A model generated the notes under the pieces. That model searched no databases, had not been told where the DNA came from, and saw only the letters and a program-made list of their open reading frames with translations. Both the position numbers and the translations under genes were made by a program. This document shows, piece by piece, positions 1,495-19,975 of a DNA stretch of 32,443 nt (within the stretch, counting starts at the first letter, position 1; every line of letters starts with the position of its first letter). The DNA is taken from the IMG/VR virus record IMGVR_UViG_3300032288_001826, positions 1-32,443 of that record; one strand, given 5' to 3'. This DNA comes from a virus.

Positions 1495-1808
1495 GTAAAC
1501 CTATCGAGATAATAACAGAGGCCGAGGAGGTTTCGAGTAAGCCAGTCGAAAAAATGACAACGGCGGACCTGGGCACGTTGGTTCGCGAACGAACGTTCCT
1601 ATCCGGAGAGAGTGGCCAACAAAAGCTGATCGAAATGATCGACGCGATAATTACCAGGGCGACGCGTGGCGACATGAAGGCCGCCGCGATTATATTCGAG
1701 CGAGGCTGGGGCAAGGTTCCCGAGACGTTCGTCCAGACGGTCAGCTCAGAGGGTACGAGTAAGATCACGATAATAACTCCGGACGGAAACCAGCTTCTCC
1801 TCGATTAA
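1491..1808 (+). CDS. terS: Probable terminase small subunit
   Basis: The 105-residue protein directly precedes the large terminase (TAATG overlap). The core MIDAIITRATRGDMKAAAII (about residues 49-68) followed by FERGWGKVPE resembles the DUF5681-like small terminase or DNA-recognition proteins of many phages, where a GDxxAA helix is followed by a GKP/GKV turn. Small subunits bind the packaging start site and pass DNA to the large subunit. Identification rests mainly on position and this weak motif. The protein is short for a complete TerS, so an accessory packaging protein remains possible. Confidence 0.65.
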   Translation: MSKPIEIITEAEEVSSKPVEKMTTADLGTLVRERTFLSGESGQQKLIEMIDAIITRATRGDMKAAAIIFERGWGKVPETFVQTVSSEGTSKITIITPDGNQLLLD

Positions 1809-3118
1809 TGAGCGTCGATTTACGAGCTAACCCGAAACAGTGGGTTTATTTTTGTAAAGTAATCGAGGCGTTACTGGGCCATAACGAGTACCGGAATTTT
1901 TTTTATGGCGGGGCGATACGTGGCGGAAAGACATACGTCAGCGCGGCAATTTTACTTTACGCGGGACGACAGTTCCCGAACACACGCTGGCACGTTGTAA
2001 GGAGAACGTTTAAGGTAATGAAGGACACGACGATACCGACGTTCGAGAAAATCGTTAGCGGCGGCGTTAACTGGAAGTGGAACCGTGACCCCGGTAACTT
2101 TTTTTTATACCACAAAAAGACAGATAGTAAAATTTTTTTTAAAGGAGAGAATATCGAGGACGACCCGAACCTTAACAACTGGCTGGGGCTTGAGACGAAC
2201 GGCGTGTTTATGGAGCAAATCGAGGAGCTCTCGATTAAAACCTGGAATATGGCGCTGACCAGGATCGGGAGCTGGTACGTCGATAACATGCCGAAACCGA
2301 TAACGCTCAGCACGTTCAACCCGACGCAAAAATGGATTAAACAAAAAGTACATTTACCGTACATGAACGGGACACTACCGGAGACGTTTTACTACCAGCT
2401 GGCGAACTACCAGGACAACGCGTTTGTAACTAAGGATCAGATAAGCAACTGGACCAACACGCTGGACGAGCGTTCCAAGCGGATCATGTTAGACGGCGAC
2501 TGGACGAATTACGACAACGATGGGAACCGCTGGGCGTACGCTTACAACTCAGAGCGACACCTGACGCGTGAGAGTCAACTGATGGGCGGCGAGGTTTACC
2601 TCTCGTTTGACTTTAACAAAAACCCGATGAGCTGTATCGTTTTTCAAACGAACCGCTTTAACCAAATTTACGTTCATGAAGCGATTAAACTCCCGAACTC
2701 GGATATTTACGAAATGTGCCAGTATATCGAGGCGCACTATCCGGGGCGGTTGTTTATCGTTACGGGCGACAGCTCGGGCAACGCGAGGAGCGGACTCGTT
2801 CGGGATTCAATGACGTACTACCTGATAATACAAAAACAGTTAAACCTGAGTGGAAATCAAATGATGATCCCGAACTCGAACCCGTCAATCGAGAAAAACC
2901 GGGTACTGTTTAACTCGGTATTAAGTAAAGGAGAGTTTAAGATATACGAACCGAAATGTAAGGCTCTGATTTTTGACCTGGAGAACGCGGCGATTCGGGC
3001 GGACGGTAGTTTAATAAAGCAAGACCGAAACGATCCGACTCAACAGCTCGACCTCCTCGACTGTGCGCGTTATGCTGTTAATACTTTTTTGAGTTCCTTT
3101 TCAAATTTTAATTATTAA
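1808..3118 (+). CDS. terL: Terminase large subunit (packaging ATPase and nuclease)
   Basis: This 436-residue protein has a complete two-domain layout. The ATPase domain has Walker A GAIRGGKT (35-42), a Walker B-like GVFMEQIEE (132-140) and a coupling motif LSTFNPT (168-174). The RNase H-like nuclease domain has acidic residues D268 in LSFDFNKNP, D321 in VTGDSS and D418 in LLDCARYAVN. It cuts concatemeric DNA and drives it into the procapsid through the portal. Size and motifs are normal for the PBSX/phage terminase family. The two T8 runs in this gene are in-frame Phe codons. Confidence 0.95.
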   Translation: MSVDLRANPKQWVYFCKVIEALLGHNEYRNFFYGGAIRGGKTYVSAAILLYAGRQFPNTRWHVVRRTFKVMKDTTIPTFEKIVSGGVNWKWNRDPGNFFLYHKKTDSKIFFKGENIEDDPNLNNWLGLETNGVFMEQIEELSIKTWNMALTRIGSWYVDNMPKPITLSTFNPTQKWIKQKVHLPYMNGTLPETFYYQLANYQDNAFVTKDQISNWTNTLDERSKRIMLDGDWTNYDNDGNRWAYAYNSERHLTRESQLMGGEVYLSFDFNKNPMSCIVFQTNRFNQIYVHEAIKLPNSDIYEMCQYIEAHYPGRLFIVTGDSSGNARSGLVRDSMTYYLIIQKQLNLSGNQMMIPNSNPSIEKNRVLFNSVLSKGEFKIYEPKCKALIFDLENAAIRADGSLIKQDRNDPTQQLDLLDCARYAVNTFLSSFSNFNY

Positions 3119-3131
3119 ATTTGAGTCACTT

Positions 3132-3518
3132 ATGGCACTGGTAAACTGCGGACCAACTTACACTCGAACCGTCTCAGGTTGCAACGAGTTTATAAATATC
3201 GTCTGGGTTCCTGACGGATCGATGGACGTATGGATTAAGGTCACACTCCAGAGCGGCAAGTCGTTAGTTTATCAAACGGTTTCCGACTTTAACGGAACTA
3301 TTCAGCTGGCACAAAACGAAATCGCTCCCGGGTTCTGGAACTCCAGCGACGGAGTTACGAAATGGGAGTTTTACTCTGACGAGAATTTTTGTAACTTAAT
3401 AACGCCCGAAATTTGCGGCGTTACTTATACGGACCTCGCGATTATATTCGACGACAGCACGGCGTCGCCTGGTTTATTCGAGGTCGTTTGTGTTTGTGAG
3501 GAGGAGCCGCCAGTATGA
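3132..3518 (+). CDS. Hypothetical late protein (128 aa), possible tail component
   Basis: Not recognised. The protein begins MALVNCGPTYTRTVSGCNEF, looks beta-rich with several aromatic strands, and ends in a cysteine- and acid-rich tail (CVCEEEPPV). It has no signal peptide or membrane segment. It follows terL by 13 bases and overlaps the next gene by ATGA, so it belongs to the late operon. Its placement upstream of the chaperone and tape measure genes suggests a tail or neck structural protein. TAAATTTG at 3116-3123 resembles a -7 promoter box but has a poorly spaced -33 partner. Confidence 0.7.
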   Translation: MALVNCGPTYTRTVSGCNEFINIVWVPDGSMDVWIKVTLQSGKSLVYQTVSDFNGTIQLAQNEIAPGFWNSSDGVTKWEFYSDENFCNLITPEICGVTYTDLAIIFDDSTASPGLFEVVCVCEEEPPV

Positions 3519-3799
3519 ACGAGGTAATTTTAAACGCGTTCTGGTGTGTGGGCGTTCACATTTTACTGGTATTCGATTTTTCGATATTGCGCCCGGTAGG
3601 ATGGCAGCTGGAGAGGTTACTCCCGGACTGGATGGCAAAGCCGTTGTTTACGTGCCCGGTTTGCATGTCCTCGGTACATGGGTTTTTATTTTTATGTAAG
3701 TTTAGCGCTCCGAAGTGGGCGCTACATATAGGCGCTCTGGTAGCGTTCAACGCGTTACTGGTTGGAACGATTTACAAATTATTTCCGGACCAGGAATGA
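3515..3799 (+). CDS. Small membrane protein with CPVC motif, DUF1360-like
   Basis: The 94-residue product has a hydrophobic N-terminal segment (about 7-25), a central TCPVCMSSVHG motif (about 46-56) and a second hydrophobic segment (about 68-88). The C-P-x-C-x-S-x-x-G pattern between two membrane helices resembles the DUF1360-type family, whose function is unknown. The cysteine pair could bind metal or form a disulfide. It overlaps both neighbours by ATGA. Its job within the packaging and tail genes is not clear, and it is probably not a classical holin. Confidence 0.65.
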   Translation: MNEVILNAFWCVGVHILLVFDFSILRPVGWQLERLLPDWMAKPLFTCPVCMSSVHGFLFLCKFSAPKWALHIGALVAFNALLVGTIYKLFPDQE

Positions 3800-4026
3800 A
3801 TATCGCACACGCTCACGATTTTATTTTAAGCCGCGGCGCTCAGTATATCGGGGAGACTTGCGGCTGTAACGGGGCCCCGAAAAAAAAACAGTATAAATTT
3901 AAAAACTGGGTTCTGGTAGTTATGCCCGCGCGTGGCGTGTATTACTGGAACGTTCCAGTCGGCAACGAAAAACACCCTCTTAACGATTTACTTAACGATG
4001 AACGACTCACTGTTTACGAGAATTAA
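3796..4026 (+). CDS. Hypothetical protein (76 aa)
   Basis: I chose the ATG at 3796 because it overlaps the preceding stop as ATGA. An in-frame ATG exists at 3715 but lies inside the upstream gene. The product begins MNIAHAHDFILSRGAQYIGE and has a GETCGCNG cysteine pair and a lysine-rich KKKQYKFK stretch followed by WVLVVMPARGVYYW. No family was recognised. Its 3' end overlaps the next gene by 29 bases. Confidence 0.6.
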   Translation: MNIAHAHDFILSRGAQYIGETCGCNGAPKKKQYKFKNWVLVVMPARGVYYWNVPVGNEKHPLNDLLNDERLTVYEN

Positions 4027-4609
4027 GCACGTATTTAAACCGCCAGTTAACCAGCTGGAGCGGGATAGGTTCGTAGTCGATTACGCGTTTACGTGCGGCG
4101 GCGTGGATTACTACGAGTTTAAGGACAAAAATAATTTGCCGTACGAGCGCGGGCTGGAGAGCCTGACGTTTTTCCAGGAGCTCCAGAACGGAGTTACAAA
4201 CGATTACTTAAAGGCGCACTGTGAGCAATTTAAACGGATTATTGAGAACCCCAAACAGATAAACATATCGGAAATCATACGGCTTTATTCAAAGCTGGAG
4301 GACCGTTTACAGTATATAGTCAGCAAGGACGTTATTTATCGCGTGGCCTCGGTAGTGTTTATCGACAAAACAGAGAACCCGCTCCGGTACGATTACGAGT
4401 ACAACTGGAAAAAAATAGCACACTGGAAAAAACACGATGCCGACAGTTTTTTTTTGCGCGAGCCTTTAAGGAGACTGATACCGTTTTTACAACTATCCGG
4501 AAACTCTTCCCTGATGTATTTGCAAACGGTGGAACTGATCGAGGCGATCCTACAAAACGAAACTGGAGAGTCGACGTCCGAGAAGGAACGGAGGACCGCG
4601 AGCGTATGA
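3998..4609 (+). CDS. Probable tail assembly chaperone, short (unshifted) form
   Basis: The 203-residue product starts at MNDSLFTRIKHVF. An upstream in-frame ATG at 3932 would add 22 residues but reads through the previous gene. There is no direct sequence match to a known family. The assignment rests on its position immediately before the tape measure gene and on a T9 run inside the gene with an open -1 frame behind it, the classic architecture of phage tail assembly chaperones (G and G-T proteins). These bind the tape measure and guide tail tube polymerisation. The C-terminal part after residue 152 (FLQLSGNSSLMYLQTVEL) is helical. Confidence 0.6.
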   Translation: MNDSLFTRIKHVFKPPVNQLERDRFVVDYAFTCGGVDYYEFKDKNNLPYERGLESLTFFQELQNGVTNDYLKAHCEQFKRIIENPKQINISEIIRLYSKLEDRLQYIVSKDVIYRVASVVFIDKTENPLRYDYEYNWKKIAHWKKHDADSFFLREPLRRLIPFLQLSGNSSLMYLQTVELIEAILQNETGESTSEKERRTASV

Positions 4610-4740
4610 AGTTACGAGTAATGAAATACCTCCCGGCGAATTACCAGCTTAACGGTTTGGGTTTGTACGACTTTTTTTTCTACGCGGACGAGGCGCGTAG
4701 GTCAGAGGCAAGACAGAACGCAAGGCAAAAAACAAAATGA
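3998..4740 (+). CDS. Predicted frameshifted tail assembly chaperone (G-T-like), -1 shift at 4447-4455
   Basis: Reading 3998-4453, slipping back one base, and continuing 4453-4740 gives a fusion of about 247 residues. The -1 tail reads FARAFKETDTVFTTIRKLFP, later DVREGTEDRERMKLRVMKYL, and ends EARQNARQKTK. In the -1 frame an ATG at 4606 overlaps the 3998-frame stop as ATGA. It could instead start a separate 44-residue protein, MKLRVMKYLPANYQLNGLGL onward. Either way the -1 frame appears coding up to the tape measure start. Frameshifting is inference. A low-abundance extended form is the usual arrangement. Confidence 0.5.
4447..4455 (+). other. Candidate -1 ribosomal frameshift site (T9)
   Basis: Nine T bases give in-frame slippery heptamers T TTT TTT (4447-4453) and T TTT TTG (4450-4456) relative to the 3998 frame. 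The -1 frame has no stop from 4246 to 4738 and ends in a TGA that overlaps the tape measure start. Runs of 8 T also occur in terL and elsewhere in this Phe-rich genome, so the run alone is weak evidence. Position, shift direction and the open frame together make the case. Confidence 0.55.
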
Positions 4741-7451
4741 CCGACGTCGTCGTTAAGTTCGTCGCGGACACTCAGGGGCTACTCCCAGCGGTTCAAATCA
4801 TGAAAACGCTCGGACAGTTATCGGATGAGCAAGCCGCGGAAATCGATCGAATAAACACAAAGCAAAAGGAAAGCATTTCGATATTAAACCAGAGCGCGAC
4901 GGCGGCTGGCAAACTGGAGGGCGAGATTAAGGACCTGGGAAAAACGCTCGGCGACGGAGTTTTTCAAAAGGCGCCCGGAGTTCTCGATCCAAAGGAGGGA
5001 GCTCCGATTCCTGAGACGATTAAGAAAACGAAAACGTTAAAGCAAGAGTTAAAGGAGTTAAAGGCCCAGATCGCGAGCGGCCAACTGGAGGGAGCGGAAC
5101 TACAAAAGGCGGCCGCCAGAGCTGGAGAACTGGCCGACGCTATCGAGGACGCAAGCCGTCAGGTTAAAGCGTTCGCGGGTAATCGTTTGGAAAATAATTT
5201 AAAGGCAATTGGAGAGGGAGTTCAGCTGGCGACGGCTGGGTTTGCTGCTTACCAGTCGATTGTTACTTTGACGGGTTCGAAAAACGAGGAGCTACAAAAA
5301 ACGATGGTAAGGGTGCAAGCGGCGGCGACGTTATTACAGTCGGCGACGACGATAACGAACCTCCTCCAAAAGGAGAGCGCGTTAATCCAGGGTATATTAA
5401 CCGGGCGTTTGTACGGGTTAGACAAAGCTCAGCGGTTAGTCGCGATCGGGGCTCGCGTTATGGGCGTCGAGACGGCAACGGCGACGGCGATAATGAGCGG
5501 AGGTTTGACTGTTATTTTAAGCCTCGTCGCGGCGGCTGCTCTGTTTGCTATGGGCGAGGAGGAGCTGACGGACTCGATTACAAAAACGAGTTCAGCGATG
5601 GACGACCAGAAACGAGCGGCTGGCGATTTAGCGGACAAGCTCGCGGAGGTTGACGCGGACCTGGCTGTTTTGAGCGGATCCATGAGTCAACGCGAGGCGG
5701 ATATTTTAAAGGCTGATATAAAAAATAAAAAGGAACGAATAAGCGCCGAGGACGATTACCAAAAGCTCAAAGAGAAGGCGGTAATGGACGGAATTAAACA
5801 AGTTTATAAAGACGAAACCGAAGCCCAGGAAATGTTTAAAAAACTGGAAATGGACAACGGTTACGTTCGCTTAAAGGTTAAAGCGGATATGGACTCTCAG
5901 GAGTACATGGCGGCGCAAATGGTAAATAAAAAGCTTTTTAAATTAGCTGGGGAGCACATAAAATATATGGCCGACCTTGAAACGTTAGGCAACAAAGAGA
6001 AGGAAATAATAAACAAAAACCACGACACGCGCGAAAGCCAGGCCCGTAAGGCGGCAAATGAAAAAGCTCGTCAGGCTAAACAGCAAGCGGATAAACAAGC
6101 GATGGACGACGCGCGAGCACTGGCCGCGTGGATGGCTGCGGAGTCAGTGGCAAGGGCTAAGCGTGAGCTGGCGATTTATACCGACGAGGACCTCGAGCCA
6201 AAACTCAAAGCGGAGGAGGATTATCACAAAGCCCTAATGGCGCAAATCGATAACAACTTTAAGGCGCAAGGAAAAACAAACAGCGAACAACACCAGACAG
6301 CACTCGCGGAGGAGACCGACAGATATAACGACCGGATAAACAACCTCCGGACGAATTATTGGGATAAGGTAATGAGCGAGACGGAGCGCAAGGCCCAGGA
6401 GCAAAGGAAACTCGAGGACCGTTTGTTTAAGTTAAACATGGACGAGCAAGCCGAGAATTTCGCCTCGATACAACTCGCCCAGCTCCAGCTCGAAAAGGAT
6501 AACTATGAAGGACGCAAGGAGCTGTTAATGGAATGGCTGCGGACGAAAAACAAAGAGACTTATTTACAATTCGAGAACGAGGGTAAACTCGGTTCGGAGG
6601 CTTACAAGTTAGCGCTGGCCCAGAACCAGGCGGAGTTCGAGGCTCAGATGAAATCGCTCGACGACACTATGAAGGCGAGGCGTAAAGAATACCAGGACGC
6701 CGCGATCGGTTCGGCGATGGAAATAATTAACGCGGTTAACACGATAACGGCAAGTAACCGTAAGGCTGAGACAGACGCCCAGCTGGAGGACCTTAACACC
6801 AGACGCGAGGCGGCACTGAGTAACGCGAACCTAACCGAGAGCCAAAAAATGGCTATCGAAAAGCGTTACCGGAATGAGGAAAAAGCGATTAAGCGCCAGG
6901 CGTGGGAGGCTGACAAACAAGCCGCCGTCGTTATGGCTGTAATAAATACAGCCGTCGCGGTTACTAAGGCACTGCCTAACGTTTTACAAGCCGTCGCGGC
7001 TGGCGTGGCTGGAGCTGCCCAGGTGGCGGTTATTGCAAGCCAAAAGCCGCCGAAGTTTGCAAAGGGAACCGAGTTCGTGGAAGGTCCGGGAACTGGAACG
7101 AGTGACTCGATTCATGCGATGTTATCGCGTGGAGAGCGCGTGGTTCCGGCTAAGATTAACGAGGAGTATTTCGAGGCGCTCAGTGCGATACAAAACCGCA
7201 AGGTCGAGCCAGGGCTGGCGAACAATATCATGGAGAGCCTCGCGTCTGGTTCGTACCGTTTGGCCGCGTTTAAAGGTTCTCGCGGCGTGGGCTCAGCAAA
7301 CCAGATGGATTACGAGCGTCTCGCTCAAATAGTAAAGCAAGGCCGCACGAACGTCGAAATATCGATGGACGAAAAGGGTTTTAAAAAATACATGATTAAC
7401 GAGCTGAGTCGGACTCAGTACGTCAATAAAAAACTAAGGATAAAAACATGA
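4737..7451 (+). CDS. Tail tape measure protein
   Basis: The 904-residue protein is by far the longest of the tail module and sets tail length (about 135 nm if 0.15 nm per residue). It starts MTDVVVKFVADTQGLLPAVQ and has long alanine-, lysine- and glutamate-rich coiled coils (about 45-155, 290-480, 490-720). A hydrophobic stretch lies at about 160-275 and a second near 730-770 rich in Ala and Val. Near the C-terminus is the FAKGTEFVEGPGTGTSDSI segment followed by MLSRGERVVP, a hallmark of many phage tape measures. It overlaps the upstream frame and the downstream gene by ATGA. Confidence 0.93.
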   Translation: MTDVVVKFVADTQGLLPAVQIMKTLGQLSDEQAAEIDRINTKQKESISILNQSATAAGKLEGEIKDLGKTLGDGVFQKAPGVLDPKEGAPIPETIKKTKTLKQELKELKAQIASGQLEGAELQKAAARAGELADAIEDASRQVKAFAGNRLENNLKAIGEGVQLATAGFAAYQSIVTLTGSKNEELQKTMVRVQAAATLLQSATTITNLLQKESALIQGILTGRLYGLDKAQRLVAIGARVMGVETATATAIMSGGLTVILSLVAAAALFAMGEEELTDSITKTSSAMDDQKRAAGDLADKLAEVDADLAVLSGSMSQREADILKADIKNKKERISAEDDYQKLKEKAVMDGIKQVYKDETEAQEMFKKLEMDNGYVRLKVKADMDSQEYMAAQMVNKKLFKLAGEHIKYMADLETLGNKEKEIINKNHDTRESQARKAANEKARQAKQQADKQAMDDARALAAWMAAESVARAKRELAIYTDEDLEPKLKAEEDYHKALMAQIDNNFKAQGKTNSEQHQTALAEETDRYNDRINNLRTNYWDKVMSETERKAQEQRKLEDRLFKLNMDEQAENFASIQLAQLQLEKDNYEGRKELLMEWLRTKNKETYLQFENEGKLGSEAYKLALAQNQAEFEAQMKSLDDTMKARRKEYQDAAIGSAMEIINAVNTITASNRKAETDAQLEDLNTRREAALSNANLTESQKMAIEKRYRNEEKAIKRQAWEADKQAAVVMAVINTAVAVTKALPNVLQAVAAGVAGAAQVAVIASQKPPKFAKGTEFVEGPGTGTSDSIHAMLSRGERVVPAKINEEYFEALSAIQNRKVEPGLANNIMESLASGSYRLAAFKGSRGVGSANQMDYERLAQIVKQGRTNVEISMDEKGFKKYMINELSRTQYVNKKLRIKT

Positions 7452-11481: not shown

Positions 11482-13413
11482 ATGGAACTTTACAGAAAAA
11501 TTGAAATCTTTACGGCCGCCGAGGTCGAAAAACTAATCAAACACAAACCGCACGCGGAGGAGTATGAGAACTTTTTAATTTACTCAGACGCGAAATACCC
11601 ACGCGAGTTACTGGACAAACAACGTCCAAACGAGCACGAAACTGTTAAACGTTACCGGAAGGAAACCTACGAACCCGTTTTCTGTGAGGTTTTCGACCGT
11701 CTATTAAACTCGTTAAACCGGATCCAACGGTCCGACGGTTATATGTTAAAGTACCCGGACGAGAGTCAGTGGCCAGCGATTAAGGAGGAGGAGCGTTTAA
11801 GCGTTTACCTGGGCACGGATTTTTCAGCGGAGAAGGATCTAATGAGCTGGACGTTTAACGTCGCTATGAAGCAACAAATAATCGACGCGAACGGCGTCGT
11901 CGTTATCTGGGGCGAGCGCTCAGACGATCCGACAGAGTACACCGAGGTCACGCCTTACATTATAAACAGCGACCGGATTCTTTATTATTGCGACGAAAAA
12001 AGTATACTATACAAGGCCGAGCACGAACGCCGTCGCTGGTACTCGATCGACGAGGAGAGCTGGAAGGTTTGGGAGCAAGGTAATAACGGGCAAATTAAAT
12101 TAGTCGAGGAGTATTACCACGGGCTCCCAGAGGTTCCAATGTTTAAACTCGGCGGCGTGGTTAAGAGTCAATATAAGGAGGACATAACTTACCAGTCCAG
12201 ATTTAAGGGGATGCTACCCTGGTTAAACGTGGCGACGATGGAGTTCTCAGACTTACGCGCTGAGATAACTTTACACCAGTACTCGACGCTGTGGATGTAT
12301 GAGGACGAACAGTGTCCAGAGTGTGTGGGGATGGGTTTCCTAATTAAAGAGAGTCAAAAAGTACCTTGCACAAATAACAAGTGTGTTAACGGCGTGGTTC
12401 CGCGTTCCCCGTTTGACGTTATTAAAGTCCGTCCTCCAAAGGCAAACCTCGGCGAGCAAATGGCGCCACTCCCTCCGGCTGGGTATATTCAAAAACAAAC
12501 GGATATAGCCGAGCTCCAGAGTAAGCGGATCGAAGGCCACCGTTACCGGGCGCTCGCGGCGGTTAATATGCAATTTTTGGAGGAGGCTCCAGCGGCTCAA
12601 AGCGGACTCGCGAAGGCTTACGACCGCGACGAAACAAATAACACGTTTTACGGCGTGGCTCTGGACCTTGCGCGCGTTATGGAGTTAACGGCAAAATATA
12701 CAGCGCTCTGGCGTTACTATCCGTTGTACTCGGAGGACGACTGTGAAGCTATGGTTCCGCTGGTTATCGTTCCGAACACGTTCGATATTTTGGGATCGGA
12801 TTTTTTAGTAAGCGAGTTAAAGGTCGCAAACGACAGCAAGGTAAACGACGCGATTTTAAGCTCAATAGAAAAGGAGTTAATCCGGAAGCGTTTCCCCCAA
12901 GACTTTAAACTGCAAAACCAGTTAACGGACGCGTTCGACCTGGACCCTATGAGCGGGTTAACCGAGGACGAGAAGGCGCTCCGGGTAAGTAACAAGGGAG
13001 CGACTAAACAAGACTATTTGATAAGTACATATATTCAGGATTTTATCCGGATGGCATACGAGGAGAACCCAGAGTTTAATCGTTTGAGCCGGAGAGAAAA
13101 ACAAGCGGTAATGGAAAAAATGGCTAACGAAAAACTGAAAAATATAAATTCAGTTAACAAGTTATACACTCAAATAATGGGCGAGGTTGAAACAAGCGGA
13201 GGAGGTAACGAGTTAAAGAACTCCGTCGGAGGTTTGACTGGTATCATCGAAATAGTTAAGGCTGTGAGCTCTGGAGTTTATGACCTCGAAGCTGCTATCG
13301 CGTTAGTAATGGATCGATTCGGGTTAACATACGAACAAGCGAAGGCTCAACTCGGAACGCCTCAAACAATAACAGATCCGACAAAAGTCGATAACGTGGC
13401 TAAATTGATTTAA
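11482..13413 (+). CDS. Portal protein with inserted zinc ribbon
   Basis: The 643-residue protein precedes the MuF-like gene by a TAATG overlap, the usual portal-MuF order. N-terminal residues carry KRYRKETYEPVFCEVFDRLL; the middle has VVVIWGERSDDPTEYTEVTP and LPWLNVATMEFSDLRAEITL; helical stem-like segments follow around LAKAYDRDETNNTFYGVALD. Portals form the dodecameric ring through which terminase packages DNA. An unusual C278-x2-C281-x14-C296-x4-C301 cluster in the middle looks like a zinc ribbon insertion. Assignment to the portal family comes from size, position and general pattern. Confidence 0.82.
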   Translation: MELYRKIEIFTAAEVEKLIKHKPHAEEYENFLIYSDAKYPRELLDKQRPNEHETVKRYRKETYEPVFCEVFDRLLNSLNRIQRSDGYMLKYPDESQWPAIKEEERLSVYLGTDFSAEKDLMSWTFNVAMKQQIIDANGVVVIWGERSDDPTEYTEVTPYIINSDRILYYCDEKSILYKAEHERRRWYSIDEESWKVWEQGNNGQIKLVEEYYHGLPEVPMFKLGGVVKSQYKEDITYQSRFKGMLPWLNVATMEFSDLRAEITLHQYSTLWMYEDEQCPECVGMGFLIKESQKVPCTNNKCVNGVVPRSPFDVIKVRPPKANLGEQMAPLPPAGYIQKQTDIAELQSKRIEGHRYRALAAVNMQFLEEAPAAQSGLAKAYDRDETNNTFYGVALDLARVMELTAKYTALWRYYPLYSEDDCEAMVPLVIVPNTFDILGSDFLVSELKVANDSKVNDAILSSIEKELIRKRFPQDFKLQNQLTDAFDLDPMSGLTEDEKALRVSNKGATKQDYLISTYIQDFIRMAYEENPEFNRLSRREKQAVMEKMANEKLKNINSVNKLYTQIMGEVETSGGGNELKNSVGGLTGIIEIVKAVSSGVYDLEAAIALVMDRFGLTYEQAKAQLGTPQTITDPTKVDNVAKLI

Positions 13414-14336
13414 TGACCGGAGACAAAGAGATAAATAATTTACTGACGACAGTCGACAAAGGGCTGGCAACGTTTGACGAGGTAATTCCGGAAATTCAAA
13501 ATCGGATTTACTCTAAGTTAGTCGAATTCCAGCGAGAGCTCGACGTCTCCGGCGGAACGTTACAAAATACGGCAAAAAATATCCGGCTACTGGGTAGGCT
13601 AAAATCCGAACTGCAAAAAATAATACTGGACGACGCCGATTATCTGGAGGCCGTTACTCAGTTCGGCAAGCTTTACGAGAAGGTCGACACGTTAAACTTG
13701 AACTATTTTAAGAGCCTCGAAAAAAAATTTAAGCCGCCCGAAATAGTGAGCGCCGTTCGCGAACAATCCGTCGGAATTTTACTCGAGCAACTAACCGAGG
13801 GCGGGATGGACGCGAACATTATAAGCCCGATCCGTGAGGTAATAAATACCTACGTAACAACGGGCGGGAGTTACGCTAAGCTAAGCGAGGAGCTCGGGAA
13901 CTATATTAAAGGCTACCAGAGCAACGCGGGACCAGTGGACGGCGTTCTGTTAAAATATACTAAGCAAATAACGACCGACGCGATTAACCAATACAGCGCG
14001 ACGGTTAACGATTTAATGACTAAGGACCTCGGCTGGGAGTGGTTTCGTTACCAGGGGAGCGACAGAAAAACGACGCGCACGTTTTGCAAGGCCTTAAAAG
14101 ATAAAAAGTATTTCCACCGCTCCGAACTCCCGAACATTATAAAGGGAAATTTTACTGAGTTTCAAAATTTAAACGGTAAGATTTACGCCAAAACGGGACT
14201 CCCGCAAGGCATGATCGACGATACCAATACGTCGAACTTTATGGTTTACCGTGGCGGCTATAACTGCGGACACCAAGTTTATCCGATACCTGCGGCACTG
14301 GTTCCGGCAAATATAAGGGCTTTAATAACTGGTTAA
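13413..14336 (+). CDS. MuF-like minor head morphogenesis protein
   Basis: The 307-residue protein has the C-terminal MuF-type signature: TRTFCKALKDKKYFHRSELP, then GLPQGMIDDTNTSNFM and YRGGYNCGHQVYP (about 281-293). The N-terminal two thirds are helical. MuF proteins sit at the portal vertex inside the head and take part in capsid assembly or are ejected with DNA. It follows the portal gene with a TAATG overlap. The 19-base gap after it holds a perfect 12-base palindrome GTTAAATTTAAC at 14342-14353. Confidence 0.85.
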   Translation: MTGDKEINNLLTTVDKGLATFDEVIPEIQNRIYSKLVEFQRELDVSGGTLQNTAKNIRLLGRLKSELQKIILDDADYLEAVTQFGKLYEKVDTLNLNYFKSLEKKFKPPEIVSAVREQSVGILLEQLTEGGMDANIISPIREVINTYVTTGGSYAKLSEELGNYIKGYQSNAGPVDGVLLKYTKQITTDAINQYSATVNDLMTKDLGWEWFRYQGSDRKTTRTFCKALKDKKYFHRSELPNIIKGNFTEFQNLNGKIYAKTGLPQGMIDDTNTSNFMVYRGGYNCGHQVYPIPAALVPANIRALITG

Positions 14337-14355
14337 TTATTGTTAAATTTAACGC

Positions 14356-14676
14356 ATGAATACAAATCAAAATCCCACTTACAAAGTGTTAAAGATTACA
14401 CTGCCAAACGGAGTGAGTCAGATCATCCCGGACAACGCGAAAAATCGAAAGTTTCACGCGACAAAAAAGTCGAGCGTGAGCCGTGAAAAACAAGCTCGTT
14501 ACTTTATCGAGCCGCAAGAGCTGAACCTGGACGAGGCCGCCGAGCTCGGAATTTACGAAGCGTACGCGCGTAAAAACCCGCCGAAGGTCGTCGAACAAAA
14601 GAGCCAGACTCAAATCTTAATGGAGTTAATAAAACAGAACCAGGTCCTAATCGAACAACTCACTAAAAGCACCTAA
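14356..14676 (+). CDS. Hypothetical head-module protein (106 aa)
   Basis: Begins MNTNQNPTYKVLKITLPNGV. Contains a basic stretch KNRKFHATKKSSVSREKQAR and ends in a glutamine/leucine-rich segment (ILMELIKQNQVLIEQLTKST) that should form a short coiled coil. No family was recognised. It lies between the MuF-like gene and the scaffold, so a capsid assembly or decoration role is plausible but unproven. Start chosen as the first ATG after the palindrome in the intergenic gap. Confidence 0.6.
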   Translation: MNTNQNPTYKVLKITLPNGVSQIIPDNAKNRKFHATKKSSVSREKQARYFIEPQELNLDEAAELGIYEAYARKNPPKVVEQKSQTQILMELIKQNQVLIEQLTKST

Positions 14677-14678
14677 AA

Positions 14679-14735
14679 ATGGCAAAAACGAAAATAACTC
14701 GCCCGAGTAAACCTTGCTGCGGCGGTTCACGTTAA
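14679..14735 (+). CDS. Possible micro-ORF with CCGG (18 aa)
   Basis: An ATG two bases after the previous stop, preceded by AAAA like other starts here, encodes MAKTKITRPSKPCCGGSR. The peptide is basic with a Cys-Cys-Gly-Gly end. Spacing fits an operon member and leaves only 12 bases before the scaffold ATG, so the gap is otherwise filled. Too short for a family call; it may be a real micropeptide or chance. Confidence 0.4.
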   Translation: MAKTKITRPSKPCCGGSR

Positions 14736-14747
14736 AAAAAACAATTT

Positions 14748-15632
14748 ATGAAAACAGCTGGAGAACTATTTAAAGACCTCCTCGAGCGTGCCGGGTTTGA
14801 CACGAATGAGAAGGCGTTCATTGATATTTTGAGCAAGGCGGATTTTTCGACGACTCCGATCCCGGACTCGATTACTGAGGCGCTTACGTCAAATCTTATA
14901 AGCCTGGAACACGGCAAAGCACACCCTACGCTGAAAAAACACTATACAGCGATGGCGCTCGATCCGTTTAATAATAACATCGAGACCTGGTTATCGGAGC
15001 ACGGTATCGCGGACGAAACGATTAACGAAATCGTTCGAGAAAAAAGCACCTACTCGAAGGTTGAAAAAGCCCTTAAAAAAATAGCGGAGCAAGCGGGTAA
15101 CAACGCTAAGAGCTCAGCTGGTAAGGATTCACAAACCTACCAGGCGCAAATCGTCGAGCTGAACCGTAAGCTCTCCGAAATGGAGACACTTAAACAGCAA
15201 GCGCTTAAAGAGGTTACGGACCGTTACGAGAGCCAAATCTTAAACGAAACGGTTAACTCGATATTGAGCGGTTTACCGTTGCCGTCGAACGTGGATAAAG
15301 AAATCGAAACACAAATCGCCCGGTCCATTGTTGACCGTAAGCTCGAGGAAAAAGGCGCTGTGTTAAAAAAAATAAATGGAAAACTTACGCTCGTTAGCAA
15401 AGAGGACGGACAAACACCTATCTTTGACAACGGCAAGGAGTTATCCTTCCAGACACTCTCACAAGCTGCCCTGGCCGAGAAAAACTTTTTAAAGGTTAAC
15501 GGAGTGGGCGAAACAAAACCTGGAGCACAAGCTCCGAGACAACCGCACCAAAGCGGAACCCCTCAAAAACCAACCGTAACAGCGGCGTTAAGTCACATCG
15601 ACGATATGCTGAATTCGGTAAAAACAACTTAA
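14748..15632 (+). CDS. Capsid scaffolding protein
   Basis: The 294-residue product sits directly before the major capsid gene. It is helical and rich in Lys and Glu, with a coiled coil around 124-165 (QIVELNRKLSEMETLKQQAL), a proline- and glutamine-rich low-complexity linker (KPGAQAPRQPHQSGTPQKP), and a short C-terminal helix (LSHIDDMLNSVKTT) like the capsid-binding tail of scaffolds. Scaffolds guide procapsid assembly and then leave. Assignment is by position and composition. No protease domain is seen. Confidence 0.75.
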   Translation: MKTAGELFKDLLERAGFDTNEKAFIDILSKADFSTTPIPDSITEALTSNLISLEHGKAHPTLKKHYTAMALDPFNNNIETWLSEHGIADETINEIVREKSTYSKVEKALKKIAEQAGNNAKSSAGKDSQTYQAQIVELNRKLSEMETLKQQALKEVTDRYESQILNETVNSILSGLPLPSNVDKEIETQIARSIVDRKLEEKGAVLKKINGKLTLVSKEDGQTPIFDNGKELSFQTLSQAALAEKNFLKVNGVGETKPGAQAPRQPHQSGTPQKPTVTAALSHIDDMLNSVKTT

Positions 15633-15636
15633 AAAA

Positions 15637-16749
15637 ATGGCTTTAGGATATTGCCCGGCGATCCTCGAACACATGAAATACGTGATCGGAGAAAACGCGC
15701 CAGAAACAAAAATTACTCCCTCCGGATTTTTAAAGGTCCTCCTCGAGAAGGGAGCCCAAGCGTCTCCAATGGGAGACCCTTTGACACTATCAAATGAGGC
15801 TGGTCACATCAAGGACCTACGTTTGAAGTATTACACCAGAACCGAAGGATCGCAAATTTCAGAAATTGATAACTGCGATATTAACCTGGTTCCTGAGTAC
15901 TCAGAAATCACTATTGACAGCGTAGCGACCGCTAAGTTCGGTATGCACTTTAGCGACGAGACTATCGCTCGTTATTGCGACGAGGCGAGCCGTTCCGTAG
16001 TTTTAGGCGGAGCTCCGACTCCGTTTATGCAAGAGCACCTTGCGGGCCTTATGGCCTCAATGAATGGTTTCGTTACTGCAATTAACAGCGGATTAACCTC
16101 CTCCGTAGTTTGGGGAGTTAACGCCGTTACTGGTAATAACACCGCCGTAACCGTAAACTTTAACCAGGACTTAACAGTGGACGATTTCACTGAGGGCTGG
16201 ACTAAGGTTCTGAACGATTACGCGTTTAACGAAGGTATGGGCCGCCCTATCGTGGTAGGTTCTGGACTTGTTAACGCCGCCGCTATTCAAGCTCGTAACG
16301 GTCTAATGACTAACTACGCGCAAATGAATAACAACGCTGGTTTTGGCGCGTTTGATTATTACCACGATATTATTTCAGCGTCAACGTGGGGAGCTAACCA
16401 GTTTGGAGTTTTCCAGCCTGGAACGTTTGGACTGGTTCAAATTAACAAATACACTGGTTTCCGCGCTGGCCAAAAAGGAACCAGCTGGTTCTGGAACATG
16501 CCTATCCCTATGGACATGCCAGGAGCCGAAGGTTTGTTACCTTTGTTTAACATCGATTTCCAAATGAAGTATCTCGACTGTCCGACTACCGTAATTGTAG
16601 GCGAGGAGGAGGTTACTTACCAGCGTGGCTGGAGCTTAATCATGAGCAAAGAGTACGCTCTGTGGCAAGTTCCAAATGACGCTTACCAAGCTACCGACCG
16701 TTTGACTGGAGTTAACGGAGCGTTTCGTTACACCGCAACCAACGCCTAA
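15637..16749 (+). CDS. Major capsid protein
   Basis: The 370-residue protein follows the scaffold by four bases. It starts MALGYCPAILEHMKYVIGEN and contains HIKDLRLKYYTRTEG, a glycine-rich loop AFNEGMGRPIVVGSG and a beta-rich C-terminus, consistent with an HK97-like coat fold. Its codons differ from neighbours: more GGT, GCT, CGT, ATC and ACT, as expected for the most highly translated structural gene. The upstream AACTTAAAAAA stretch is the A-rich type of initiation region seen in this phage. Position and size agree with a coat protein; I see no diagnostic motif. Confidence 0.85.
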   Translation: MALGYCPAILEHMKYVIGENAPETKITPSGFLKVLLEKGAQASPMGDPLTLSNEAGHIKDLRLKYYTRTEGSQISEIDNCDINLVPEYSEITIDSVATAKFGMHFSDETIARYCDEASRSVVLGGAPTPFMQEHLAGLMASMNGFVTAINSGLTSSVVWGVNAVTGNNTAVTVNFNQDLTVDDFTEGWTKVLNDYAFNEGMGRPIVVGSGLVNAAAIQARNGLMTNYAQMNNNAGFGAFDYYHDIISASTWGANQFGVFQPGTFGLVQINKYTGFRAGQKGTSWFWNMPIPMDMPGAEGLLPLFNIDFQMKYLDCPTTVIVGEEEVTYQRGWSLIMSKEYALWQVPNDAYQATDRLTGVNGAFRYTATNA

Positions 16750-16752
16750 CCT

Positions 16753-17778
16753 ATGGGCTGCCTGAGTGGTTTAGTTTACTTAAAGGGCTGCTCGATTAAT
16801 GAAGTACCCGGAGCGATTTATAACTTAAACTCGCTCCTGGGTATTTCCTTAAAAAGTTTCGCCGAGGTGGCGGACTCCGAGCAAGTTAATTATCTGGGCG
16901 TTTGGGAGGATATAAACGAACGCGCGGAGGCTCGGATCAAAAACGAAATAATGACTCACTTAAGTACGCGTTATAACCTTAAACGCGTACGTCGGACAGT
17001 GGACACGGCTAACGTTCAACCGACCGCGCCGTTTGCCGCTGGCGACACTTACCAGGGGATAGTTTTAAACCAGGCGTACACGTTTACGGACGACTGGATT
17101 TTAACGCCGTTCGCGAATTTTTCAGTCGATAAAATTCGTTTTTATTACGGCGTGGGAACTGTGGCGACATCGGTCGATATTCAGTTTTTTAACTACCTCA
17201 CAAAAGAAATCCTCGACACGAAAACTATCGACTTAACGGCTTACACGCCGGGGAACTGGATCGAGGTTTCAATTTTAAAAAAATGGAATATCCCCGTTTT
17301 AGGCGTCGGTTTTAATTCGACCGACGTCGAGACGTTAACATATAGCGCCGCCGAGTTAAACGGACTCTGGGCCGAATGTATGGATTACTGTTACGACGTG
17401 AGCTGTGGCTACTTACAAGGGTTTGCAAGTTCAACGAATAACGCGAACGGTAATCTTAACAACGGCGATTTAATAACCGGGCTCCAGATCGTTGTAACTA
17501 TGGGCTGCGATTACGACCCGGCTATTTGCAGCAACCGACAAATTTTTGCCGAGGCGTTTTGGTATTTACTGGGCTGCGAGTTTATGAGCGAAAGACTTTA
17601 CACCAGCCGAGTTAATTATCTAAGCACGATCAAACGAGAGGAGGCTCGCGAGCTGTTTAACCTTTACGAGGGTAAATATCGAGAGGCTCTAAAAAACGCG
17701 CTGGACGGCCTTAAATTTAGCTGCGACGCGTGCCTCGAGTGTAACTCCTTAGTAACTGTTTTTTCTCCGTTACCGTAG
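16753..17778 (+). CDS. Head-tail connector / neck structural protein (341 aa)
   Basis: Lies three bases after the coat gene, where head completion adaptors usually sit. Starts MGCLSGLVYLKGCSINEVPG. A helical N-terminal part (to about residue 80), a middle beta-rich region that may be an inserted carbohydrate-binding-like domain (about 95-190, with DWILTPFANFSVDKIRFYYG), and a cysteine-rich C-terminus (FSCDACLECN). Much longer than a typical adaptor, so a fused decoration or adhesion domain is possible. No family recognised with certainty. Confidence 0.65.
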   Translation: MGCLSGLVYLKGCSINEVPGAIYNLNSLLGISLKSFAEVADSEQVNYLGVWEDINERAEARIKNEIMTHLSTRYNLKRVRRTVDTANVQPTAPFAAGDTYQGIVLNQAYTFTDDWILTPFANFSVDKIRFYYGVGTVATSVDIQFFNYLTKEILDTKTIDLTAYTPGNWIEVSILKKWNIPVLGVGFNSTDVETLTYSAAELNGLWAECMDYCYDVSCGYLQGFASSTNNANGNLNNGDLITGLQIVVTMGCDYDPAICSNRQIFAEAFWYLLGCEFMSERLYTSRVNYLSTIKREEARELFNLYEGKYREALKNALDGLKFSCDACLECNSLVTVFSPLP

Positions 17779-18215
17779 TGCAATACTTTAGCAATATATA
17801 CCAAGTTATCGGGGACCTCGTTACGAGTATTAACGCGCTCGAGTACGCGGAGACGGTTTCACGTGCGGCCGCTGCGGCTGTTATGCCGGAGCTCCGGGAG
17901 CGAATACACGAACGAGGAGAGAAACCAGACGGAAGTCCAATCGGGACCTACTCGGAAAAATACGAGGCGCTCAGAGAAAAAAAATACAACCGAACCGAAG
18001 GAAACAAAGTGGTTTTATCTTTGACCTCAAACCTCGAACAAAGTTACACGCTTGCGGCTCAAGACAACGGTTACACGATCGGAGTTCTGGGAGATTTAAA
18101 CGCGAATAAAATCGAGTGGTTAACCGAGCGTTATGGTAACGTTTGGGAGTTATCCCAGCGTGAACAAGACATGGCAAAAATAGCCGCCGAGGAGACGGCT
18201 CGAAAACTGTTATAA
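17778..18215 (+). CDS. Head-tail joining / virion morphogenesis protein (gp10-like)
   Basis: Starts with GTG in a TAGTG overlap with the previous stop, so re-initiation is likely. The 145-residue product has an N-terminal helix with Ala repeats, MPELRERIHERG, DGSPIGTYSEKYEALREKK, and LSLTSNLEQSYTLAA followed by a beta hairpin and a C-terminal helix. This pattern resembles HK97 gp10-like or phage virion morphogenesis (neck/tail completion) proteins. Identification is by pattern and position, not by a strict signature. Confidence 0.65.
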   Translation: MQYFSNIYQVIGDLVTSINALEYAETVSRAAAAAVMPELRERIHERGEKPDGSPIGTYSEKYEALREKKYNRTEGNKVVLSLTSNLEQSYTLAAQDNGYTIGVLGDLNANKIEWLTERYGNVWELSQREQDMAKIAAEETARKLL

Positions 18216-18782
18216 ATGAACCTAACCGGAATAATAAACGAAATAGACAAAGCGATTAACGCCGTTTTAACGCCGCGAGAGCTCAGTCCATTAAAGGCCT
18301 GGGGACTTGCCGAGCGTTATTACGACGATAAGTATTTTTTTTCTGGAGTTCAGCAAGGAAGCGAAATCGTTAACTGTATGTTTACGGACCAGTACCGCTG
18401 TTCATGGTATCATCGTGAGCTGACGGGTAAATACTTAACCGTTGAGAACAACTACGGAGACAAGCTCGACAAGGTCGAGGAGTCGAACGAGATCGCGCTT
18501 ATTATTTTTTTCCACCGTAGCACGTTAACGGCTGAGACTGTTAAGGACTTGTTTATCGGTTCAATTCCAAGCGTTTTAACGAGAGCAATCTGTGAGAGTT
18601 TGCAACTGTTTGACTGCCGTATTGAACTAATTAATCATGACCTCGACGCTCGAGTCGTCCAGCAATCAGAGACCAACGTCCCCGAAGTGAGAGTCGGGTT
18701 AAATTATGGACTTGTCTCAGTCCGTTACTCAATCAAAACAACCTATCGGAGATCATGTATTGAGCTCTGTAAAAACTGTTAA
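18216..18782 (+). CDS. Probable tail terminator/completion protein (188 aa)
   Basis: Directly follows the gp10-like gene and precedes the tail tube gene, the usual spot of the tail terminator. Begins MNLTGIINEIDKAINAVLTP. Contains alternating helices and strands (NEIALIIFFHRSTLTAETVK) and ends in a cysteine-rich tail CIELCKNC. No family recognised with certainty; the call is from gene order. Confidence 0.55.
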   Translation: MNLTGIINEIDKAINAVLTPRELSPLKAWGLAERYYDDKYFFSGVQQGSEIVNCMFTDQYRCSWYHRELTGKYLTVENNYGDKLDKVEESNEIALIIFFHRSTLTAETVKDLFIGSIPSVLTRAICESLQLFDCRIELINHDLDARVVQQSETNVPEVRVGLNYGLVSVRYSIKTTYRRSCIELCKNC

Positions 18783-18785
18783 ATT

Positions 18786-19328
18786 ATGCCTTACTATCCT
18801 TCAGGCTGCGAGGAAAACATCGCGGCTCACGTTTGCGGTTCATGCGACGTTGAACTCTCCCGCGTGCGCGGAGTGGCGCTCGTGAACCAATCATATTACC
18901 CTACGCTTGTCGCTAACTTAGGCGACCAGGCAACCTGGGACGCTGGTATTAACTCCGGCGAAATTTACGTATACCCTGAGACCCAGGGCGATTACGACGG
19001 CGGAACTCCTAACATGGGACAAGGTTACGGAGACACTGAGGAGAACCTCAACTCTTACACTTTTAACCTGACGTTTAAGGACCCGAACTACATTAACAAC
19101 CGGAACCACTACAACAGCGTAAAGGGCTCGAGAAATTTCCACGTAGCGTTCCGCTCGGAAACCGTTCTGGCTATTTCTGACGTGCCGTGTACGATCGTTC
19201 CGCAAAACCCAATCCAGAACGATTTAAAACTGGAGCGCACCTGGGACGTTGCCGCTAAATGGACCAGCGACAATTTCCCCGAAGAGGCGACTTACTCAGC
19301 TGGGCTCTGGACTTGTTACGTTCCTTAA
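18786..19328 (+). CDS. Tail tube protein, copy 1 (major)
   Basis: 180 residues starting MPYYPSGCEENIAAHVCGSC. Paralogous to the next gene: both share MPYYPS, ELxRVR, the YVYPETQG/FVYPETQG segment, a GS/GD-x-EE stretch and NRNYHV or SRNFHV. Codon use is like the coat gene (AAC, GGT, ACT, GTT), suggesting high expression, as expected for the major tail tube subunit. Position after the terminator-type gene fits. The fold is not provable from sequence alone. Confidence 0.7.
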   Translation: MPYYPSGCEENIAAHVCGSCDVELSRVRGVALVNQSYYPTLVANLGDQATWDAGINSGEIYVYPETQGDYDGGTPNMGQGYGDTEENLNSYTFNLTFKDPNYINNRNHYNSVKGSRNFHVAFRSETVLAISDVPCTIVPQNPIQNDLKLERTWDVAAKWTSDNFPEEATYSAGLWTCYVP

Positions 19329-19345
19329 TTAAAGTGTTAAAAAAT

Positions 19346-19371
19346 GGAGGGCCGTTTTATCGCGGCTCTCC
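19346..19371 (+). terminator. Hairpin between the paralogous tail genes
   Basis: GGAGGGCCG (19346-19354) pairs with CGGCTCTCC (19363-19371), a 9-bp stem with one G-T pair and an 8-base loop. It is followed by TTACCTTTG rather than a long T run. It could act as a partial terminator or RNA 3' end stabiliser, giving more transcript of the capsid-to-tail-tube genes than of the genes downstream. TACCTTTG at 19373-19380 also fits the -7 promoter box but lacks a good -33 box. Confidence 0.55.
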
Positions 19372-19384
19372 TTACCTTTGATTT

Positions 19385-19975
19385 ATGCCGTACTATCCCA
19401 GCTGTTTAGTTCCTGACGTTAATATAGGCCCGAACTGCGAGCCAGAACTCGGACGCGTTCGAGCTGTGGCGTTTGTCCATCGTAACTATTTTAACACGAT
19501 AATTTCGGACGTTACTAACTTAACGAACTGGGATATCGGGCGGTCAGCTCAACGGATTTTTGTTTACCCAGAAACTCAGGGAGAGTTTAACGGAGGCGAT
19601 CCTATAAACGTCCGCGGGTTCGGTAGTATGGAGGAGTTTCCGCTGCTTTATAATTTTCAACTAAAAATTTCCGAGCCTAACTATAAAGGAAACCGCGATC
19701 ACTGGAACGCGTTAATCGGAAACCGTAATTATCACGTTTTTTGGCAAACCGAAACAATCATGTACGCGAGCACGCGTCCAGTCGTTATCGTTCCAAAAAA
19801 CCCACACTCAAACAGTTTAAAAGACGAGGTTGTTTGGGTGGCCGAGATCCAGTGGACAGACAACAAATTTCCGTTCGAGTTCGATCGGGATAACAACGTA
19901 ATGAGCTGGAGTTATACGTTTGTACCTCCGCCTTATTATTCATTCGACGACAGTTTCGACAATTCATACCAATAA
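19385..19975 (+). CDS. Tail tube-like protein, copy 2 (divergent paralog)
   Basis: 196 residues starting MPYYPSCLVPDVNIGPNCEP. Clearly homologous to the 18786 gene over nearly the full length, including ELGRVRAVAFV, RIFVYPETQGEF, NRDHWNALIGNRNYHVFW and VIVPKNPHS. It has a longer C-terminus rich in Tyr, Phe and Asp (YYSFDDSFDNSYQ). Codon use is genome-average, so it is probably a minor tail component or a tube cap rather than the bulk subunit. Its stop overlaps the next start as TAATG. Confidence 0.65.
   Translation: MPYYPSCLVPDVNIGPNCEPELGRVRAVAFVHRNYFNTIISDVTNLTNWDIGRSAQRIFVYPETQGEFNGGDPINVRGFGSMEEFPLLYNFQLKISEPNYKGNRDHWNALIGNRNYHVFWQTETIMYASTRPVVIVPKNPHSNSLKDEVVWVAEIQWTDNKFPFEFDRDNNVMSWSYTFVPPPYYSFDDSFDNSYQ

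Follow-up and report, generated by a model that had tools for sequence, protein, structure and literature searches.

A -1 slip that gives a short and a long tail chaperone from one gene is a long-known trick of phages. In phage lambda, the G/GT gene lies directly 5' of the tape measure gene, a -1 slip yields the rarer, longer chaperone, and the T frame extends as far as the start of the tape measure gene. The lambda slip heptamer is GGGAAAG, the distance from heptamer to 0-frame stop is 18 nt, and G adjoins the tube gene V. The slip site and the 0-frame stop are likewise 18 nt apart in N15, and at most 52 nt and 38 nt apart in HK97 and Mu, respectively. The slip site of Tweety is not established, and its overlap could reach 87 nt. 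Phage P2, which has a contractile tail, makes E and E+E' at a T-run slip site, T_TTT_TTG, with an overlap of 21 nt. The extension frame of P2 has no ribosome binding site and overlaps gene T, which encodes the tape measure; in a P2-like phage, T7G stands in for the T6G of P2, with the same purpose and at the same place (PMC3931495). Outside phages, the dnaX gene of Thermus gives two products from a T9 run, by a slippage that is proven by experiment (reviewed in PMC5009743).

The DNA analysed here is a virus record of 32,443 nt (IMG/VR IMGVR_UViG_3300032288_001826, positions 1 to 32,443; hereafter the window), and the chaperone and tape measure features described below lie on its + strand. The gene comparable to lambda G opens at ATG 3998 and ends at TGA 4607-4609, encoding 203 aa (3998-4609). 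Near its 3' end, a T9 run (4447-4455), read in the 0 frame as AG[T TTT TTT TTG], holds two in-frame heptamers, T_TTT_TTT (4447-4453) and T_TTT_TTG (4450-4456). The -1 frame stays open from 4246 onwards and closes with a TGA at 4738-4740, which overlaps the ATG (4737) of the next gene; the first usable start of this frame is ATG 4606. All positions given in a first-pass annotation of the window are confirmed. From the run onwards (4447-4740), the open and conserved -1 frame encodes the T domain, of about 95 aa, and the stretch 4457-4606 is dual-coded, frame 0 giving the C-terminus of G and frame -1 the start of T. The gene 3' of G (4737-7451, 904 aa) had been called a tape measure gene, and it does match the tail length tape measure family phrog_18891 (E = 1.8e-8).

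We consider it probable that the locus encodes a G/GT tail assembly chaperone and is recoded, in a programmed way, by a -1 shift at the T run. Most ribosomes would read 3998-4609 and make G, and a minority would slip back on T9 by a single base and read on to 4740. The predicted GT of about 247 aa, join(3998..4456, 4456..4740), would have its first 152 residues or so in common with G, followed by the T domain. If the roles are those known from lambda, G would coat the tape measure protein, the T part would recruit tail tube subunits, and both G and GT would leave before the tail is completed. The ribosomal nature of the slip, its frequency and the chaperone function are what we infer; the locus itself establishes a slip site, conservation of the -1 frame and a position just ahead of the tape measure gene.

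Three features of the G/GT class are present: an ORF directly 5' of the tape measure gene, an in-frame slippery sequence close to the 3' end of that ORF together with an extension frame that is shifted, and protein-level selection on that extension frame. A slip site only a few codons away from the 0-frame stop is the usual arrangement, though not strictly a defining one, and is not found here. The heptamer-to-stop distance is 150-153 nt in the window, against 18 nt in lambda, and the dual-coded overlap spans 39-70 codons across relatives. The longer overlap differs in degree, and the comparison covers six phages only. No sequence similarity between the window and lambda or P2 was found. As the first-pass annotation had stated, the protein family is not recognisable, G having no match in PHROGs, Pfam, PDB sequences or 50,697 phage records. 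Among known tail assembly chaperone families in PHROGs and Pfam, no profile match was significant, the best being phrog_1196 at E = 0.083 in 4 of 25 members. Foldseek searches of PDB and BFVD returned nothing at E <= 0.001, with query models of low confidence (pLDDT 56 and 65). The tail-chaperone role is thus supported by position, architecture and conservation rather than by a recognised family or fold.

Relatives and conservation of the -1 frame

Used as the only query, the G protein of the window gave no matches in IMG/VR or phage records, and a first scan of bacterial genomes with G gave none either. The entry to relatives was a search with the tape measure protein, which led to L009, a viral contig of the same layout. 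Its G protein is 24% identical to that of the window over 145 aa (pairwise E = 2e-10). An alignment of the two G proteins retrieved 46 loci, and L009 alone 79. Once duplicates were removed, the set held 64 distinct sequences in which the second frame is complete, namely the window, its relative L010 and 62 sequences of the L009 clade. A terminase search of bacterial genomes succeeded and gave Bacteroidota records, including a Proteiniphilum prophage and a Bacteroidota bin, both with G homologues. Aligned with the window, these Bacteroidota homologues retrieved 25 further loci. The window clade as analysed contains 24 sequences that are 33-53% identical to the window. Altogether, about 86 distinct relatives in two clades, at 24-53% identity to the window, keep the T run. 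Tape measure homologues lie 3' of G in L009 and L010, and the order of G followed by tape measure is common to L009, L010, L148 and L150.

In the window alone, the open -1 frame already exceeds chance. When the 0-frame protein is held and its synonymous codons are resampled, the 51-codon tail of the -1 frame stays open with P = 0.04, and the longer stretch from 4246 to the 0-frame stop in 0 of 5000 draws. No -1 stop occurs in the overlap of the 62 sequences of the L009 clade, where synonymous recoding predicts stops in 44.4 of 45 and 15.7 of 17 sequences. The reverse test, in which the -1 protein is held, predicts 0-frame stops in 43.6 of 45 and 16.6 of 17, and none is seen. The window clade likewise has -1 stops in 0 of 24 sequences (null mean 23.8, minimum 21). 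These nulls take related sequences as separate, and counts inside one clade are not independent. The stronger point from sequence comparison is therefore the agreement of two diverged clades, which outweighs the counts within either. The first-pass annotation had proposed comparing the -1 frame across related phages, and had named conservation of the 0 frame alone, or -1 stops in relatives, as outcomes that would speak against its reading; neither occurred in the 62 + 24 sequences. Its proposal of a lambda-like G/GT architecture is accordingly supported by the position before the tape measure, the slip site and the -1 frame conserved in both clades.

Codon-position variability, measured in 45 sequences, changes along the gene. 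Mean values at 0-frame codon positions 1/2/3 are.21/.10/.48 ahead of the run,.25/.23/.37 within the overlap and.27/.39/.28 past the 0-frame stop. In the alignment, this is the pattern of 0-frame coding, then of both frames, intermediate in the dual-coded stretch, then of -1 coding. Sliding-window values are noisier, and one block (codons 16-23) resembles 0-frame coding alone. The T domains of the window and L010 share 43% identity over 90 aa (E = 9e-25); in the first 30 overlap codons of this pair the -1 score exceeds the synonymous null (P = 0.0004). An alignment of 25 sequences also has the -1 frame open and conserved. T proteins have in common an aromatic/acidic motif near their end, e.g. 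GLYDFFFYADEAR, SLYEFFFWANEAR and TIYEFFFKLNKAL. Within the window clade, the -1 frame ends at most about 50 nt from the start of the tape measure gene in every member for which that start was located. As far as sequence comparison can go, the conservation of the frame is as strong as it could be. A second T run, T8, lies within the T domain of the window (4672-4679), where the -1 codons are TTT TTT TTC; the corresponding run of L010 is shorter.

The site and the nature of the slip

The in-frame T run is found at the same place in all 64 of the sequences first collected and in each of the 24 window-clade sequences. Its length varies between clades. L009-clade runs are T6 (n=13), T7 (n=18) or T8 (n=31), with T_TTT_TT(T/C) always in frame, and window-clade runs are T9 in 21 of 24 and T8 in the other 3, with T10 in L181. 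The first Phe codon of the run is TTT in 64/64 sequences, against 136 TTT and 202 TTC in the rest of these genes. The block immediately 5' of the run holds a -1 stop in 63 of 64 sequences. In 19 members (12 of the L009 clade and 7 of the window clade) a -1 stop directly abuts the run, so that entry into the -1 frame from further 5' is impossible and the shift is located at the run. Together with the 12 of 24 window-clade members that have no -1 start between the run and the 0-frame stop, this argues that a -1 shift at the run makes G and GT.

By their sequence, both heptamers of the window fit a ribosomal -1 slip. In the L009 clade, a GGAGG-like Shine-Dalgarno-like element lies 9-10 nt 5' of the heptamer (in L009 itself, GGAGG at 3393-3397 and the heptamer at 3407), and stimulators of -1 slips are known to sit 9-14 nt upstream (PMC5009743). 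Its mean pairing energy is -12.4 kcal/mol, against -3.1 kcal/mol elsewhere in the gene, and it beats the synonymous null in 62/62 sequences (null mean -3.5 kcal/mol). The element is also retained where the encoded KGGA has changed to KEGS. Shine-Dalgarno sequences before genes were seen in neither clade, as expected because Bacteroidia ribosomes hide their anti-Shine-Dalgarno (PMC9976891). Frameshifting in prfB nonetheless persists in Bacteroidia, which has raised the question of whether their elongating ribosomes pair with mRNA (PMC8710568). An internal Shine-Dalgarno-like element in phages whose probable hosts ignore such signals at initiation offers a case in which to ask whether they still can.

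In the window clade, the window included, a Shine-Dalgarno-like stimulator was looked for 5' of the run and was not found. The first-pass annotation had also suggested folding the RNA for a downstream pseudoknot, and none is supported. Single-sequence folds are near random (z 0.2 to -1.5; -2.9 in one member, L055), and an alignment fold of 53 distinct L009-clade sequences is weak and contains no conserved hairpin or pseudoknot. A trade-off between run length and Shine-Dalgarno strength was considered and rejected, the strong raw correlation being lost with phylogenetic contrasts (r = -0.12, p = 0.29).

For the window, the leading alternative is slippage of RNA polymerase, as T9 is the length at which the bacterial enzyme slips efficiently (PMC5009743). 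GT would then come from normal translation of transcripts that carry an additional U in the T9 run, and the two products would be the same. T9 runs do slip efficiently in vivo, e.g. in Thermus dnaX (PMC5009743), where slippage is proven; at the present locus it is possible. The run is exactly T9 in 21 of 24 window-clade members and T10 in L181, the clade has no visible stimulator, and L148, described below, carries T10 with its frames exchanged. The length of the run is nevertheless not independent evidence of such slippage, because both reading frames require Ts: dual coding of Phe in -1 over Leu TTR in 0 also demands T9. Moreover, the L009 clade manages with T6-T8 and a Shine-Dalgarno-like element, and the extra base beside the run in L148, relative to L181, may be a mutation or an error. 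We regard RNA-polymerase slippage as rather unlikely overall. The first-pass annotation had called the event a programmed -1 frameshift; conserved -1 recoding at the T run stands, and the length of T9 also fits slippage of RNA polymerase. A tentative possibility, which we rate as doubtful, is that the homologous gene uses two recoding routes, an internal Shine-Dalgarno-like sequence in the L009 clade and T9, perhaps with RNA-polymerase slippage, in the window clade.

A different reading has T as a separate small gene, unfused to G and stop-start coupled at the -1 ATG (4606-4608) that overlaps the 0-frame stop as ATGA. ATG, GTG or TTG does occur at that spot in 45 of 64 sequences. However, the 12 window-clade members noted above have no -1 ATG, GTG or TTG between the run and the 0-frame stop, and the ATGA of the window, which is not common to relatives, is therefore taken as incidental as a sole start of T. 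The -1 frame is also free of stops right from the run, with stops at codons 2-24 in 0/64 sequences against a null mean of 43, and the slip run is invariant. A separate T gene is thus very improbable, and a minor second product from ATG 4606 may exist beside GT. A chance open frame or a homopolymer assembly indel has a negligible probability. Homopolymer runs are error-prone and one genome alone could mislead, but the comparison already refutes this reading: about 86 distinct sequences from many metagenomes have the same offset, varied run lengths and constraint on both frames.

Hosts, genome context and an exceptional prophage

The -1 recoding site in this tail chaperone gene is real and is conserved in siphophages that are probably phages of Bacteroidota; the gene represents a new family of a well-known kind. 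The literature covered was limited; it yielded no description of such recoding in Bacteroidota phages, which does not prove its absence. With this family, the G/GT rule reaches a large group of probable Bacteroidota phages that had no such annotation, and annotators gain a family that they currently miss. In the window, ORF callers are offered no -1 ATG before 4606. The long two-frame stretch, retained in very diverged members, is in addition a good natural case of overlapping coding.

One locus departs from the usual arrangement and counts against the favoured reading. In a prophage of the isolate Proteiniphilum sp. X52 (L148:13699-14445, identical in L170 and L180), the run is T10 and the frames are exchanged: the T domain directly continues the 0 frame, and the tail of G lies in another frame. 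Its 87% relative L181 also has T10, in the usual arrangement and with one base fewer before the run. The exchange could be a mutation of a resident prophage, an assembly error or a sign that either frame is tolerated.

The module order of the window is unusual. TerL, G and the tape measure gene stand together near its start (terminase, chaperone and tape measure at 1808-7451), and the portal, head (capsid) and putative tube genes follow at 11482-19975, after the other tail genes. The two putative tube genes are thus far downstream of G, unlike V in lambda. They encode tandem, similar proteins (18786-19975) that both start with MPYYPS; they were recognised by eye as putative paralogous tail tube proteins and have no PHROG or Pfam match. 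Between terminase and G lie three small genes (3132-4026, at 3132, 3515 and 3796), whose order is kept in L010.
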